This document shows positions 29,840 to 36,541 of a stretch of 64,000 nucleotides of DNA, piece after piece. Position 1 is the stretch's first letter. Every line of letters begins with the position of its first letter. A model generated the notes under the pieces. The model saw only the letters and a program-made list of their open reading frames with translations. It did not search any database and had not been told where the DNA came from. The translations under genes were made by a program, and so were the position numbers. Source of the DNA: Pseudomonas sp. MYb118 (GTDB lineage Bacteria; Pseudomonadota; Gammaproteobacteria; Pseudomonadales; Pseudomonadaceae); assembly GCF_040947875.1 (NCBI RefSeq), contig NZ_JBFRXN010000002.1, positions 434,001 through 498,000 on the forward strand. Reading direction: 5' to 3'.

Positions 29840-31891
29840 ATGTCCGAGCCACGCCAGATCCTCGTCACCAGCGCCCTGCCCTATGCCAATGGTTCGATCC
29901 ACCTTGGCCACATGCTGGAATACATCCAGACCGATATGTGGGTGCGTTTCCAGAAGCACCGCGGCAATCAATGTATTTATGTCTGTGCCGACGACGCCCA
30001 CGGTTCGGCGATCATGCTGCGCGCGGAAAAGGAAGGCATCACGCCGGAACAGCTGATCGCCAACGTCCAGGCTGAACACAGCGCCGACTTTGCCGACTTC
30101 CTGGTCGATTTCGACAATTTCCACTCCACTCACGCCGAAGAAAACCGTGAGCTGTCGAGCCAGATCTACCTGAAGCTGCGTGACGCCGGGCACATTGCCA
30201 CGCGTTCGATCACCCAGTATTTCGACCCGGAAAAGAAAATGTTCCTGGCCGACCGCTTCATCAAGGGCACCTGCCCGAAATGCGGCACCGAAGACCAGTA
30301 CGGCGACAACTGCGAAAAATGCGGTGCGACCTACGCGCCAACCGACCTGAAGGATCCGAAGTCGGCGATCTCCGGCGCCACCCCGGTGCTCAAGGATTCC
30401 CAGCACTTCTTCTTCAAGTTGCCGGACTTCCAGGAAATGCTGCAGACCTGGACCCGCAGCGGCACCCTGCAGGACGCCGTGGCCAACAAGATCGCCGAAT
30501 GGCTGGATGCCGGCCTGCAACAGTGGGACATTTCCCGCGACGCACCGTACTTCGGTTTCGAGATCCCGGACGAGCCAGGCAAGTATTTCTACGTGTGGCT
30601 GGATGCGCCGATCGGCTACATGGCCAGTTTCAAGAACCTGTGCAACCGCACGCCGGAGCTGGACTTCGACGCGTTCTGGGGCAAGGATTCCACCGCCGAG
30701 CTGTATCACTTCATCGGCAAGGACATCGTCAACTTCCACGCGCTGTTCTGGCCAGCGATGCTCGAAGGCGCGGGCTACCGCAAGCCGACCGGCATCAACG
30801 TGCACGGCTACCTGACCGTCAACGGCCAGAAAATGTCCAAGTCCCGTGGCACCTTCATCAAGGCCCGGACCTACCTGGATCACCTGTCGCCGGAATACCT
30901 GCGCTACTACTACGCCTCCAAGCTGAGCCGTGGCGTCGATGACCTCGACCTGAACCTCGAAGACTTCGTGCAGAAGGTCAATTCCGACCTGGTCGGCAAA
31001 GTCGTCAACATCGCCAGCCGTTGCGCCGGTTTCATCCACAAGGGCAATGCCGGCCTGATGGTCGACACCAACGCCTCTCCGGAACTGACCGAGGCTTTCC
31101 TGGCCGCCGCGCCGGGCATCGCCGACGCCTACGAGGCACGTGATTTCGCCCGCGCCATGCGCGAAATCATGGCCCTGGCCGACCGCGCCAACGCCTGGAT
31201 CGCCGACAAGGCCCCGTGGTCGTTGAACAAACAGGAAGGCAAGCAGGATGAAGTCCAGGCCATCTGCGCCACCGGCGTCAACCTGTTCCGCCAGCTGGTG
31301 ATCTTCCTCAAGCCGGTGCTGCCGCTGCTGGCCGCCGATGCCGAGGCGTTCCTCAACGTCGCGCCATTGACCTGGAACGATCACACCACGTTGCTGGCCA
31401 ACCACAAGCTCAACGAGTTCAAGGCGTTGATGACCCGTATCGACCCGGTGAAAGTGCAAGCCATGACCGACGCTTCGAAAGAAGACCTGACCGCCAGCCA
31501 GACCGACACCGGCGCAGCCGCGCCTGCCGGCAATGGCGAGCTGGCCAAGGATCCACTGTCGCCGGAAATCGACTTCGACACCTTTGCCGCCGTCGACTTG
31601 CGCGTCGCCCTGATCGTCAAGGCCGAAGCCGTGGAGGGTGCTGACAAGCTGCTGCGCCTGACCCTCGACATCGGCGACGAGCAACGCAACGTGTTCTCCG
31701 GGATCAAGAGCGCCTACCCGGATCCGTCCAAGCTCGATGGTCGCCTGACCATGATGATCGCCAACCTCAAGCCACGGAAAATGAAGTTCGGCATTTCCGA
31801 AGGCATGGTGATGGCGGCCGGCCCTGGCGGTGAAGAGATCTACCTGCTCAGCCCCGACAGCGGCGCCAAGCCAGGCCAGCGCATCAAGTAA
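29840..31891 (+). CDS. metG: methionyl-tRNA synthetase
   Basis: A 683-residue class I aminoacyl-tRNA synthetase charging tRNA-Met. The HIGH motif is HLGH (residues 21-24), the KMSKS motif is at 331-335, and the zinc knuckle is CPKCG...CEKCG. After residue about 570 a C-terminal tRNA-binding (EMAP/OB-fold) domain follows ([20 protein letters not shown]), allowing dimerisation. Start at 29840 by homology; the divergent partner is apbC. A hairpin terminator follows. Confidence 0.97.
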
Positions 31892-32022: not shown

Positions 32023-32592
32023 ATGACCGAGATTGTTCTTGTAATCATCAGCACTGCCCTGATCAACAACCTGGTGTTGCACTGGCCCCTGGGCGTCGAT
32101 TCGCTTGTGGCCACCCAGCGACAGCAGGTTCACGCACTGGGTATCGCCACAACGTGCCTGATGCTGATCGTTGGCGTGCTCAGCCACGTACTCTATTACT
32201 GGCTGCTGGTGCCGCTGGGGCTGGATTCGCTGCGCCTGTTCGTGTTCCTGCCGCTGAGCGTGCTGTTGATCGCGCCGCTGCTACGGGTGCTGGCCAGGGT
32301 GTTTTCGACGCTGTCGTTCCAGGGCCTCTGGCCGCTGTTGCTGGGCAACGCCGGCATTCTCGGGCTGGCCTTGATCAACGCCCGCGACGATCACGGTGTG
32401 TTCTTCGCGGCAGCGCTGAGTCTCGGTGCAGGGCTGGGTTTCTGGCTGGTGCTCAGCCTGTTCTGCGACTTGCGCCAGCGCACCCTCGATAACGATGTTC
32501 CCCTGCCCTTTCGCGGCCTGCCGATCGACCTGATCGGCGCCGGATTGATCGCAGTGGCTTTTCTCGGTTTCAACGGACTGATCAAAACATGA
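32023..32592 (+). CDS. rnfA: divergent RnfA/RsxA-like membrane subunit
   Basis: A 189-residue inner-membrane protein with six hydrophobic helices and the RnfA signature start ([14 protein letters not shown]). In E. coli RsxA the same region reads VNNFVLVKFLGLCPF; here Asp26 stands where that cysteine (Cys26) is expected. In the second half, GNAGILG at about 108-114 replaces VNCAILG, so Ala110 takes the place of the other cysteine. Those cysteines help hold a membrane [2Fe-2S] cluster. The protein is therefore recognisable by fold and by synteny (rnf-nth) but probably lacks its cluster. Overlaps rnfB by four bases. Confidence 0.8.
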
Positions 32593-33803
32593 GTCTGATT
32601 CAACGCATCGACGCCCTGCTGCCGCAGACCCAATGCGGCAAGTGTGGCCACGCCGGATGCAAACCCTACGCCGAAGGCATGGCCAGCGGCGAACCGATCA
32701 ACAAGTGCCCGCCAGGTGGCAGCGAAACCATCACGGCCCTGGCCGAGCTGTTGAAAGTGCCGGTAGTGGAACTGGACGTGAGTCGCGGCTCGGCCCCGGC
32801 GCAAGTGGCGTACATCCGCGAGGCCGAGTGCATCGGCTGCACCAAGTGCATCCAGGCCTGCCCGGTCGATGCCATCGTCGGCGCGGCCAAATGGATGCAC
32901 ACGGTGATCGTCGACGAGTGCACCGGTTGCGACCTGTGCGTAGCGCCCTGCCCGGTGGACTGCATCGAAATGCGCCCATTGCCGGCCGCCACGGTCGTGC
33001 CCATCGTCGGTGGCCTGGCGTTCAGTGCCGAAGCGCGACAGGCGCGAACCGCCAAACGCAATCACGCGCGCCAGCGCTTCGAACGGCGCAACGCCCGCTT
33101 GCAACGCGAGGAACAACACAAGCTCGCCGAGCGTCAGGCGCGGGCCAATCGCGCAGCAGAGCATACCGAAGCGGCGGCGCTCAACCCGGTGCAGGCCGCA
33201 CTGGAACGGGTTCGTGCGCAAAAGGCGGCGAGCGCCGATGCCGCGTTGAAAAAAGCCAAGGTCGACCTGGCGATGAGTCGCGCACAACTGCACAAATCGC
33301 TCAAGGCGTTCGGCCATCCGCCAACGTTCGAGCAACAGTCGCAACTGATCATCCTGCAACAGCAATTCGAAGCCGCCGAACAGGCCTTGTCGCAGTTGGA
33401 GAACACCATGCCGCCCGCACCGAAACCTGCTGCCCCCGCCAAGGACGCCGAGCTGAAACGGGCGAAAATCCAATTGGCCACGCGCCGCGCCGAGCTCAAG
33501 AAAGCCCAGGCCAGCGATGCGCCCGCCGAACAGATCGAGGTCCTGGAACGCGCCCTGGCCGACGCCGAACGGGCCCTGCACGCGACAGAGGACGCCAGCG
33601 GCCAGCCGCTGCCCGACCTGGTGCGCATCGAAAAGCGCCCCATCGACAGCCAGCTTCGTCAGTTGAAAACCGAATTGGCCTACGCCCGTGCCGACGTCAG
33701 CAAACTTGAACGACGCACCGACACGTCCGCCGAACAGATGGACAAGGCGCGAGCTCGCCTGCAGGAAGCCGAGCGCCGGGTGGACGCCTATGTCGCCCCT
33801 TGA
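32589..33803 (+). CDS. rnfB: RnfB-like ferredoxin subunit with RnfC-like C-terminal tail
   Basis: A 404-residue protein, about twice the usual RnfB length (near 190). It starts directly with the Fe-S domain (Cys16, 19, 24, 40) and has no N-terminal membrane anchor, which normal RnfB has. Two [4Fe-4S] ferredoxin motifs follow ([12 protein letters not shown] at 81-92; [12 protein letters not shown] at 111-122). From about 135 to the end it is charged and helical: [34 protein letters not shown], then Lys/Ala/Glu coiled coil. That tail resembles the C-terminal tail of RnfC, whose gene should come next in the cluster but is missing. A fusion by in-frame loss of most of rnfC is inferred. Confidence 0.82.
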
Positions 33804-34779
33804 ACCGGTCGACGAACGCCTTCAGCAGGCCATGAAGCTGGTTTTGCTGGCCACCGTGCCGGGGGTGCTGGCGTTGGTCTGGTGGCAGGGCTGGGGCGTA
33901 TTGATCAACCTGGTGCTGGCCGGCACGACCGCGCTGGCCGTTGAGGCCGTGGTGCTGAAGCTGCGCCAGCGGCCGCTTCGCTCGACCTTGAGCGACGGCA
34001 GTGCGTTGGTCAGCGCGACACTGCTGGCCGTGGCCCTGCCGCCGTATTGCCCGTGGTGGCTGACGGTGTGCGCCGTGGCGTTCGCCCTGCTGGGTAAACA
34101 CCTGTATGGCGGCGTCGGCAAGAATCCGTTCAACCCGGCCATGCTCGGCCTGGCCGTGGTCCTGGTGAGCTTTCCCCAGCAGATGGCGCAATGGCCGGCA
34201 TCCCATGGCATTGATCTGCTGGCCGGTTTGCAGCATGTGTTCGGCTTCAGCCTGGAGCCGACGCCGGACGCCTGGGCCCAGGCCACCGCACTGGACAGTT
34301 TGCGCATCAACAGAAGCCTGACCATCGACGAACTGTTCGCCCGCCACCCGGCATTCGGTCATTTCGGTGCCCGCGGTGTGGAATGGGCCAACCTGGCGTT
34401 CCTGGCCGGCGGCCTGTTTCTCCTGCAACGACGGGTGTTCAGTTGGCACGCACCGGTCGGCATGCTGGCCAGCCTGTTCGTGATCAGCCTGTTGTGCTGG
34501 AACGGTTCGGGCTCCGACTCCCACGGCTCGCCGCTGTTTCATCTGCTCAGCGGTGCGAGCATGCTGGGGGCATTCTTCATCGTCACGGAACCGGTGTCCG
34601 GCGCCCGGAACCCCGGCGCACGCCTGCTCTTCGGTGCGGGCGTCGGTTTGCTGACCTACCTGATTCGCACCTGGGGTGGCTACCCGGACGGCGTGGCGTT
34701 CGCGGTGCTGTTGATGAACCTGTGCGTACCGGCACTGGACCGGTTCGTCGCCTCCCGGCAGGAGCGAGTGGCATCATGA
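33790..34779 (+). CDS. rnfD: RnfD-like flavoprotein subunit
   Basis: A 329-residue inner-membrane protein. Ten or so hydrophobic helices, the [20 protein letters not shown] motif and the C-terminal [17 protein letters not shown] and [16 protein letters not shown] blocks are those of RnfD/NqrB. The covalent FMN site is kept: Thr166 in [10 protein letters not shown], equivalent to the (S/A)TxL threonine modified by ApbE. The start ATG 33790 lies inside the end of rnfB (14-base overlap); the stop overlaps rnfG by four bases, so the operon is tightly coupled. Confidence 0.85.
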
Positions 34780-35381
34780 ACCGAGCGACCAGCGTGGTGA
34801 TTATCGCAGTGCTGGCCATGCTCGGCGTCGGCGCGACGTACCTGGTGCAGCAGGTCAGCGCGTCACGCATCGCCGCCGAACAGCGCCAGATCGACAGCCG
34901 CAACCTGTTGGACCTGCTGCCGGCCGAGCGTTACGACAATCAACCGCTGGAACATCCCCTGACGCTCAACGACCGCGTGCTGAGCAACAGCCGACTGCTG
35001 GGCGGCTACCTGGCGACCCGGGCGGGCCAACCCAGCGCCGTTTTATTGCGCAGCCAGACCATCGGCTATGTGGGCAGCATCGACTTGCTGATCGCCATCG
35101 ACGCAGATGGCAAGCTGGTCGGGGTCAAAACCCTCCGGCAAACCGAGACACCGGGGCTCGGAGCTCGCATCGCCGAGTGGCCCAATGCCTGGTTGATGAG
35201 CTTTGCCGGCAAATCCCGCAACGAACCCGCCGACTGGGCGCTGAAACAGGATCAGGGCTCGTTCGACCAGATCGCCGGCGCGACCATCACGTCAAGAGCC
35301 GTGATCAATGCCCTCCACGACGCCTTGCGCTACTTCGATGAACACCGGCAACAATTGATCGGGGACGCGCCCCATGAATAA
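34776..35381 (+). CDS. rnfG: RnfG-like flavoprotein subunit
   Basis: A 201-residue protein with an N-terminal membrane helix (VVIIAVLAMLGVGATYLV) and a periplasmic FMN-binding domain. The covalent flavin site GATITS is intact, with Thr170 in QIAGATITSRAVINAL. VGVKTLRQTETPGLGARI is the conserved pattern before it. CAGGAG precedes the ATG, which overlaps the rnfD stop. Keeping the flavin site in both RnfD and RnfG suggests the complex still works in electron transfer. Confidence 0.87.
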   Translation: MNRATSVVIIAVLAMLGVGATYLVQQVSASRIAAEQRQIDSRNLLDLLPAERYDNQPLEHPLTLNDRVLSNSRLLGGYLATRAGQPSAVLLRSQTIGYVGSIDLLIAIDADGKLVGVKTLRQTETPGLGARIAEWPNAWLMSFAGKSRNEPADWALKQDQGSFDQIAGATITSRAVINALHDALRYFDEHRQQLIGDAPHE

Positions 35382-35877
35382 ATCGCTGCAACACTCGCTG
35401 ATGCTCCCTCCGCTAATCGGCGCGACCGGTTCGTGGCTGACGGCGCTGGGCCTCTGGGTGATGTTTGTCGTGATCATCCATGCCTACGGCGCAGGCATGG
35501 CGCTGCTGCGCCTCAGACTCGTCCCGACGGCACGGCTGATTGCCAGCACCCTGCTCGCGGCCACGCTGACCAGTTGCGCGCTCATGGCGGCGCAGGCCTG
35601 GTCAATTCAGTGGTATCAGCACGCAGGAATCTACACCGCATTGATCGCCTTGCAGTGTGTCGTGCTGGAGCACACAGGCTTTTTCCACAGCGCATGGCGT
35701 GATCGCCTGCGCCTGTGCGCCCTGTTTGGTGGATTGCTGCTGGGTTTGAGCGCATTGCGCGAGCTCATCGGCTACAGCGGGCTGCACCTGGCCACACTGG
35801 TGCCCGGCGGTTTCATCCTGCTGGGATTGCTGATTGCCGCCTGGCAAGCCTGGTCCCGCGCGACCCCTTCACATTGA
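35374..35877 (+). CDS. rnfE: short, divergent RnfE-like membrane subunit
   Basis: A 167-residue inner-membrane protein, well below the usual 200-230 for RnfE. The C-terminal part (GGLLLGLSALRELIG and LVPGGFILLGLLIA) matches RnfE. The N-terminal LLGLCPLLAVT motif is replaced by LMLPPLIGATG, so its cysteine is missing; the second cysteine is kept in ALQCVVLEH. The periplasmic insertion near the C-terminus is absent. Together with RnfA, three of four expected [2Fe-2S] ligands are gone. Starts inside the rnfG stop region; nth follows 25 bases later. Confidence 0.75.
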   Translation: MNKSLQHSLMLPPLIGATGSWLTALGLWVMFVVIIHAYGAGMALLRLRLVPTARLIASTLLAATLTSCALMAAQAWSIQWYQHAGIYTALIALQCVVLEHTGFFHSAWRDRLRLCALFGGLLLGLSALRELIGYSGLHLATLVPGGFILLGLLIAAWQAWSRATPSH

Positions 35878-35902: not shown

Positions 35903-36541
35903 ATGAATGCTGCAAAACGCCTGGAAATTTTCCGCCGGTTGCATGAAGACAACCCGGAGCCGAAGACCGAGCTGGCCTATTCAACGCCGTTCGAATTGCT
36001 GATCTCGGTGATTCTCTCGGCACAATCGACCGATGTCGGCGTCAACAAGGCCACGGCCAAACTGTACCCGGTGGCCAATACTCCGGCAGCCATTCATGCG
36101 CTGGGCGTGGAAGGCCTGTCGGAGTACATCAAGACCATCGGCCTGTTCAACAGCAAGGCGAAAAACGTGATCGAGACCTGTCGCCTGCTGGTGGAGCGCC
36201 ATGGCGGCGAAGTCCCGCAGACCCGCGAAGAGCTCGAAGCCCTGCCTGGCGTGGGCCGCAAGACCGCCAACGTGGTGCTCAACACGGCATTCCGCCAACT
36301 GGCCATGGCCGTGGACACGCACATTTTCCGCGTCAGCAACCGTACCGGCATTGCCCCCGGCAAGAATGTGGTGGAAGTGGAAAACAAGCTGATGAAGTTT
36401 GTGCCCCGGCAATACCTGCTCGACTCCCATCATTGGCTGATACTTCACGGACGTTACGTTTGCCTGGCGCGCAAGCCTCGCTGCGGCAGCTGCCGGATCG
36501 AGGACCTGTGCGAATACAAGCACAAGACATCGGACGATTGA
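35903..36541 (+). CDS. nth: endonuclease III (Nth)
   Basis: A 212-residue DNA glycosylase/AP lyase that removes oxidised pyrimidines. The helix-hairpin-helix LPGVGRKTANVVL contains the catalytic Lys, VDTHIFRVSNR holds the catalytic Asp, and a C-terminal [4Fe-4S] loop is CLARKPRCGSCRIEDLC. ATG 35903 has CGAGGA upstream. Last main gene of the rnf-nth cluster, as in many gammaproteobacteria. Confidence 0.96.
   Translation: MNAAKRLEIFRRLHEDNPEPKTELAYSTPFELLISVILSAQSTDVGVNKATAKLYPVANTPAAIHALGVEGLSEYIKTIGLFNSKAKNVIETCRLLVERHGGEVPQTREELEALPGVGRKTANVVLNTAFRQLAMAVDTHIFRVSNRTGIAPGKNVVEVENKLMKFVPRQYLLDSHHWLILHGRYVCLARKPRCGSCRIEDLCEYKHKTSDD

Follow-up and report, generated by a model that had tools for sequence, protein, structure and literature searches.

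An rnf cluster without a gene for the RnfC subunit, in which RnfB continues into the C-terminal tail of RnfC, is encoded in the window, the 64,000-nucleotide stretch of Pseudomonas sp. MYb118 analysed here (contig NZ_JBFRXN010000002.1, positions 434,001 to 498,000). Its membrane subunits lack three of the four cysteines expected to hold the [2Fe-2S] cluster and keep their flavin attachment motifs. Probably RNF has come apart into two units, both under selection, one a tailed ferredoxin that is soluble and the other a membrane module that works with flavins only; the soluble half of this reading rests on sequence, and the membrane half on conserved motifs and co-occurrence. The arrangement is not peculiar to one strain, as comparison of the cluster across the genus detected the fused RnfB in 111 of 149 genomes.

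The genes lie on the plus strand in the order rnfA-rnfB-rnfD-rnfG-rnfE-nth, assigned by Pfam and NCBIfam, with overlaps or a short gap between neighbours. The rnfA gene (32023..32592) encodes 189 aa with Asp at residue 26 and Ala at residue 110 in place of both [2Fe-2S] cysteines, and its product scores 104.3 bits against TIGR01943 (cut-off 229.3) in a profile search. Its stop codon is overlapped by the ATG of the fused rnfB-rnfC' gene (32589..33803), whose 404-aa product, without a membrane anchor, comprises an RnfB ferredoxin core (residues 1-134; 32589..32990) and, from about residue 149, an RnfC-derived helical tail (33033..33800). The product of rnfD (33790..34779; 329 aa) carries the flavinylation motif SGAS (canonically [ST]GAT), and that of rnfG (34776..35381), whose ATG at 34776 overlaps the rnfD stop, retains the FMN attachment motif GATIT. 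A shortened rnfE (35374..35877; 167 aa, canonical frames having mostly 235-237) is followed by nth, encoding endonuclease III (35903..36541), which also stands 3' of rnfE in the canonical clusters of the genus. The ORFs, Pfam and NCBIfam all failed to reveal a gene for RnfC between rnfA and nth, confirming the report in the initial annotation of a cluster in the usual order with rnfC missing. Compared with canonical RnfE, the window RnfE falls short by about 70 residues, and the missing stretch is present in some relatives (e.g., L066 and L104). Upstream, as context only, lies a 683-aa ORF on the plus strand (29840..31891), which we take to be metG by its sequence. No match to this rnf cluster was found in plasmid records.

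Residues 2-134 of the fused protein match TIGR01944 at 213.9 bits (cut-off 68.7) with the [4Fe-4S] motifs present, and the core cysteines are invariant in all 54 aligned fused or solo RnfB proteins. Against NF005415, the RnfB/RsxB equivalog, the protein scores 247.7 bits, under the cut-off of 281. The initial annotation had set its 404 residues against an expected size of about 190 and had remarked on the absence of the N-terminal membrane anchor; both points were borne out. Of the 19 canonical RnfB frames of the same genus, 13 have 191 aa and one has 196 aa, the remaining five being over-long at the start and cut to 191 aa. A hydrophobic helix precedes the core in 19/19 canonical loci but in 0/60 fused loci, and the window protein has no N-terminal membrane helix.

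The part following the ferredoxin motifs had been likened to the C-terminal tail of RnfC, and a search against 39 RnfC tails corroborated this likeness. All 60 fused tails (59 loci and the window; L108, with a cysteine pattern unlike the motif used, was left out) matched at E below 1e-5, the best donor came from the same genus for 57 of them, and none of 800 shuffled tails scored above 0 bits. The window tail reached 251.6 bits against a same-genus RnfC tail, and the best of 200 shuffles in a separate phmmer test reached 8.8 bits. Composition-adjusted BLASTP aligned the window tail with one same-genus RnfC at 46% identity over 226 residues (E 9e-35). As a query, the whole protein gave two matches in 18 of the 19 canonical-cluster genomes, one to the short rnfB (residues 4 to 129-170 of the query) and one to the C-terminal end of rnfC (query 179-217 to 398-403, 45-54% identity, E 4e-40 to 2e-32). 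The RnfC core of canonical genomes, positions 1-433 of TIGR01945, is absent from the fused protein. The tail matches and the absent core together argue strongly for a fusion of the RnfB core with the RnfC tail, with loss of the RnfC core. That the tail resembles RnfC only through an Ala/Arg/Lys/Glu-rich helical composition deserves hardly any credence: the composition is biased, the general profile match of the tail alone is weak (RsxC model NF003454, C-terminal positions 437-556, 21.9 bits, E 5e-5) and an SMC model gives 13.8 bits, but the 251.6-bit match, the shuffled controls, the same-genus donors and the composition-adjusted alignment all speak against it. The tail is as short as 88 residues in some fused proteins.

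In the predicted structure of the window protein, a 52-residue helix occupies residues 147-198; the model (pLDDT 79.9, pTM 0.48, block means of 46-65 over residues 1-70) was used for helices only. Arginines 161, 163, and 170 of the tail are invariant in the 54 aligned fused or solo proteins. According to a 2025 review (PMC12174285), RnfC of A. vinelandii has a C-terminal helix of more than 50 residues that interacts with RnfB and RnfH, and the function of this helix is not yet understood. A canonical Pseudomonas RnfC (query 9-490) aligns with A. vinelandii RnfC (8AHX chain C) into the first part of the tail, although the alignment is weak there and the score comes mostly from the core. On this alignment, the predicted helix would sit where A. 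vinelandii RnfC has its RnfB/RnfH-contacting helix, which in that protein belongs to a full RnfC of an intact complex. The window tail alone matched no chain among PDB sequences. From the A. vinelandii structure as summarised in the review (PMC12174285) and the alignment, we infer that an RnfB-RnfC contact survives in the fusion: the tail would have been retained because the RnfC helix binds RnfB (and RnfH) in canonical RNF, and fusion would turn an inter-subunit contact into an intra-chain one. The rnfC-less clusters also suggest that the RnfC tail helix has a role.

The loss of cysteines in RnfA and RnfE is an addition to the first description of the locus. In the scheme outlined in the review, these two subunits give four cysteines to a [2Fe-2S] cluster that conducts electrons from RnfB on to RnfG (PMC12174285). 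The four expected ligand cysteines are present in 19/19 canonical clusters; three of the four are absent in all 51 related rnfC-less clusters (40 fused and 11 without RnfB) and in the window, counted separately. The residues that we take to be the ligands were picked out by their position, using the conserved LCP and TNC motifs. Those lost are both in RnfA (window residues 26 and 110; the absence is an alignment gap in one RnfA row of the 51) and RnfE residue 12, and the fourth, Cys at RnfE residue 95, persists in the window as well as in 49 of the 51 clusters. The RnfG FMN motif reads GAT-x-T in 49 clusters and GAS-x-T in the other two. The RnfD motif xG[AS][ST], where x is S, T, A or N, occurs in 50 of 51, the exception being a broken ORF (L089); in 19 of 51, Ser replaces the third-position Ala, a departure from the [S/T]GA[S/T]-like flavinylation motif as given in a preprint (PMC10979944). 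Judged by motifs, the window cluster has the FMN attachment sites of both RnfG and RnfD, and these subunits may be flavinylated in rnfC-less clusters.

The survey of the genus covered 149 genomes, the window genome included, with thresholds of E 1e-60 for RnfC, 1e-30 for RnfB and 1e-60 for RnfD. Nineteen genomes were canonical, 77 had fused RnfB and RnfD, 34 fused RnfB only, 11 RnfD only, and eight neither. All 11 RnfD-only genomes carry rnfA-D-G-E-nth in the loci examined, and no RnfB was found in them. Besides the window genome, 110 genomes have fused RnfB; of 60 loci fetched from these, a non-random choice meant to cover a wide spread, 40 contain RnfADGE, whereas the other 20 contain RnfB and nth only. 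RnfB and RnfD were present independently of each other in the 130 genomes without canonical rnfC (Fisher p 0.43, kinship ignored), although their joint presence in 77 of these makes an interaction between the two possible. ApbE was detected in 88/88 genomes with RnfD and without canonical rnfC versus 10/42 without RnfD (Fisher 6e-22, kinship ignored), as well as in 19/19 canonical genomes, and its presence showed no relation to that of RnfB (p 0.25). Of the 88 RnfD genomes, 69 gave just one PF04205 (FMN_bind) match at E 1e-6. The window genome carries one ApbE and falls outside the 69, having two PF04205 matches, the second in a 751-aa frame, so its ApbE could serve that second protein. On the best Nth tree, the presence of RnfADGE changes 12 times, that of RnfB six times and that of ApbE 10 times; only three RnfADGE-presence contrasts are well supported, and ApbE goes the same way in 0-2 of the three and never the opposite way. 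As the genomes are related and only these three contrasts are supported, neither the ApbE link nor the independence of RnfB and RnfD is significant with kinship allowed for.

When related loci were compared in 18 pairs, no gene of any pair, those of RnfB-less clusters included, had a dN/dS as high as 1. The ratio ranged over 0.13-0.38 for RnfA, 0.03-0.15 for the RnfB core, 0.07-0.27 for the RnfB tail, 0.07-0.34 for RnfD, 0.10-0.72 for RnfG, 0.13-0.57 for RnfE and 0.01-0.20 for Nth, RnfB being covered in 14 of the 18 pairs and some values being inflated by over-long ORF starts. In one genome (G034; L089/L221), the rnfB and rnfD frames are broken, by sequencing error in the one-contig assembly or by true decay. 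SoxR was rejected as an obligatory target of soluble RnfB: only 19 of 53 genomes selected for fused or long RnfB have it above the cut-off, so it cannot be the shared function, although the window genome itself has SoxR.

In a tree of RnfD made by a quick method, the rnfC-less clusters group together in a single clade (SH-aLRT 100) next to canonical Pseudomonadaceae. Its members are 11 RnfB-less rows and 40 rows of fused clusters (the window plus 39 loci, L089 being omitted), and within it no fewer than three changes are required to account for the RnfB-less state. The single clade suggests that the loss of the RnfC core and the fusion were probably a one-time change within this genus, made in place. 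The RNF beside nth would have lost the RnfC core, about 430 residues with the FMN, NADH, and two [4Fe-4S] sites, in the ancestor of a large Pseudomonas clade. Comparison indicates that rnfB was joined to the C-terminal-tail part of rnfC and that the membrane anchor of RnfB was lost. This much agrees with the initial annotation, whereas the single in-frame deletion that it gave as the cause of the joining is plausible by inference. In the membrane subunits, three of the four [2Fe-2S] cysteines would have been lost and the FMN sites of RnfG and RnfD kept, with ApbE co-occurring. One product would be a soluble ferredoxin that has several [4Fe-4S] clusters and a helical arm taken from RnfC, exchanging electrons with cytosolic partners; the other would be a flavin-only RnfADGE, moving electrons between the RnfD flavins and the periplasmic FMN of RnfG. 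Neither module would still be a ferredoxin:NAD+ oxidoreductase.

Another reading is that the fused RnfB and RnfADGE make up one ion-pumping complex with a donor or acceptor other than NADH. The initial annotation likewise envisaged a complex fed by something other than NADH. Such a complex would fit the finding of RnfB together with RnfD in 77 of the 130 genomes that lack canonical rnfC, as well as the purifying selection on all cluster genes. It is nevertheless unlikely, for three of the four cysteines on the electron route from RnfB through RnfA/E, as the review describes that route (PMC12174285), are absent in 51/51 clusters and in the window, the RnfB anchor is lost, and the halves are kept separately, RnfB alone in 34 and RnfD alone in 11 of the 130 genomes; the annotation's view of the complex is not supported, given this loss of cysteines and separate retention. 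An RnfC supplied from elsewhere, either a second rnfC or a NuoF-like protein, would leave those cysteine losses as they are and is very improbable. The window genome (G000; 6.58 Mb in 4 contigs, 100% complete) gave weak TIGR01945 matches of 56 and 32 bits, which we take to be NuoF-like and formate-dehydrogenase-like, respectively. With the best whole-genome match at 56 bits against a cut-off of 245.95, this possibility is nearly refuted for the window genome, and the fusion came through this search for another rnfC as it had through the profile search of the tail. Another rnfC does occur in six of the 130 genomes without canonical rnfC, but the other 124 show none at E 1e-60. This rnfC is of another type (frames of 480-551 aa) and lies outside the nth locus in 8 of the 149 genomes (L028-L035, L145, L217-L219), six of which have no canonical rnfC; in the three of these six that were examined, it sits in separate clusters. 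In one genome (G022; L145), it is part of an additional rnf cluster that has all four cysteines.

Decay of the cluster after the loss of RnfC, leaving a relic with little or no function, might account for the repeated losses on the best Nth tree (12 changes for RnfADGE, six for RnfB), the eight of 149 genomes with neither half, the broken frames in G034 (L089/L221) and tails as short as 88 residues. We regard it as improbable, since dN/dS is under 1 in 18/18 pairs for every gene, RnfB-less pairs included, the FMN motifs, the RnfB cysteines and tail arginines 161, 163, and 170 are conserved, and ApbE is retained alongside RnfADGE.

The RNF complex RnfABCDGE (RsxABCDGE; PDB 8AHX and others) resembles the window cluster in locus, in gene order apart from rnfC, in the RnfB core and in the flavin sites of RnfD and RnfG. 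The window cluster differs from it in having no RnfC core, an unanchored RnfB fused to the RnfC tail, only one of the four [2Fe-2S] ligands and a shortened RnfE. NQR/RNF-like two-subunit systems, described in a paper and a preprint (PMC8238504; PMC10979944), are likewise partial RNFs with RnfD- and RnfG-like subunits, for which one-way electron flow is proposed. As described there, their RnfD is fused to a PF00175 NAD-binding domain, whereas the window RnfD is PF03116 only and the window cluster retains RnfA and RnfE. NqrA, proposed in the part of the literature covered as a cofactor-less relic of RnfC (PMC4014512), is, like the fused tail, a part of RnfC that has outlasted its redox role, but NqrA keeps the RnfC body and loses the cofactors, while in the window fusion the body is gone and the tail kept. 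In the literature searched, mostly open-access main texts (including PMC4521836, PMC10974088 and PMC1779556), no description appeared of an rnfC-less Pseudomonas cluster, an RnfB-RnfC fusion or the RnfA/E cysteine loss.

Tailed RnfB also occurs outside the genus, under the NCBIfam model NF005415 / PRK06991 'RsxB', which hit 243 of 398 genomes of the phylum at E 1e-30. In 38 of 40 non-genus genomes picked from these, mostly for long matches, neither rnfC (E 1e-60) nor rnfD (over cut-off) was present. The 20 loci examined encode an unanchored RnfB core with a tail of 78-205 residues; no other rnf genes lie beside it within 7.6-9.8 kb, and nth is near in 16 of 20. The tails match RnfC tails at E 4e-5 or better in 19 of 20 (none for L204, against the same 39 RnfC tails). 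Tails of families f20 and f23, where the best matches to the model occur, are closest to the RnfC of f27, another lineage, in 6/6 cases, and those of f3 are closest to that family's own RnfC (3/3). A tree of RnfB cores requires at least two changes between tailed and canonical states, and a single clade of tailed RnfBs was rejected (AU test, p 0.0016), a result obtained on 124 columns with long branches and a group defined after the tree was seen. Because the tree requires at least two changes and regain of RnfC is unlikely, we read these data as two or more fusions, by which the tailed solo RnfB would have arisen separately outside the genus. The Pseudomonas clade also takes in six tailed RnfBs of other genera, by a shared fusion or by convergence. 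In G241 and further f13 genomes, RnfB frames have about 147-189 aa and matches end near the core; with G241 lacking rnfC, a tail is not kept in every case. A MAG titled Klebsiella pneumoniae (L318), perhaps a mislabelled bin, has a tailed RnfB beside nth, with no other rnf genes in the stretch examined.

A more specific picture, which we put forward tentatively and at somewhat less than even odds, is that an Fe-S-free, flavin-only RnfADGE uses ApbE-attached FMN to carry electrons between the membrane and the periplasm, beside a free soluble RnfB whose RnfC arm shapes it or recruits partners, and that this RnfB device evolved at least twice. The partners could perhaps be RnfH or the adjacently encoded [4Fe-4S] enzyme Nth. 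A link between RnfB and Nth was not adopted, as it draws on gene neighbourhood, which ancestral gene order explains equally well. If the picture holds, the independent origin of such fusions, each to a local RnfC tail, would imply for the RnfB-tail unit an old RNF function that requires neither NADH nor ions nor the membrane. RNF has been described as a machine coupling ferredoxin, flavins and ions via the membrane [2Fe-2S] cluster; in the rnfC-less clusters it has been dissected by nature, and there the action of RnfADGE in the absence of Fe-S input can readily be tested. The finding may also bear on the roles of RNF subunits in aerobes, of which SoxR reduction is an example. Caution is advised with family models that label such genes 'electron transport complex subunit RsxB', as if the pump existed.

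Named genomes gave 80 loci, of which 29 have fused RnfB and RnfADGE, 22 RnfB only and 29 an RnfC match. Pseudomonas protegens, P. chlororaphis, P. cichorii, P. otitidis, P. alcaligenes and Stutzerimonas urumqiensis are among the records with fused RnfB and RnfADGE, and the RnfA cysteine motifs were found in 0/29 of these fused clusters. A motif failed in 5 of the 29 RnfC-bearing loci; the cysteines were present on inspection in three (L304, L316 and L326) but not in the other two, both Pseudohongiella MAGs (L317 and L325), and one locus (L324) is without RnfA. The two Pseudohongiella clusters, each beside nth and with no RnfG found, appear to be declining separately. In L325 (4279-7594), RnfA is without the first cysteine and RnfC has 177 residues, consisting only of the 2x[4Fe-4S] ferredoxin part and the tail, which makes it look like the intermediate that the fusion would need. 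In L317 (2061-7440), RnfC is whole and RnfA and RnfE have no ligand cysteines at all, showing that cysteine loss can precede the loss of RnfC.
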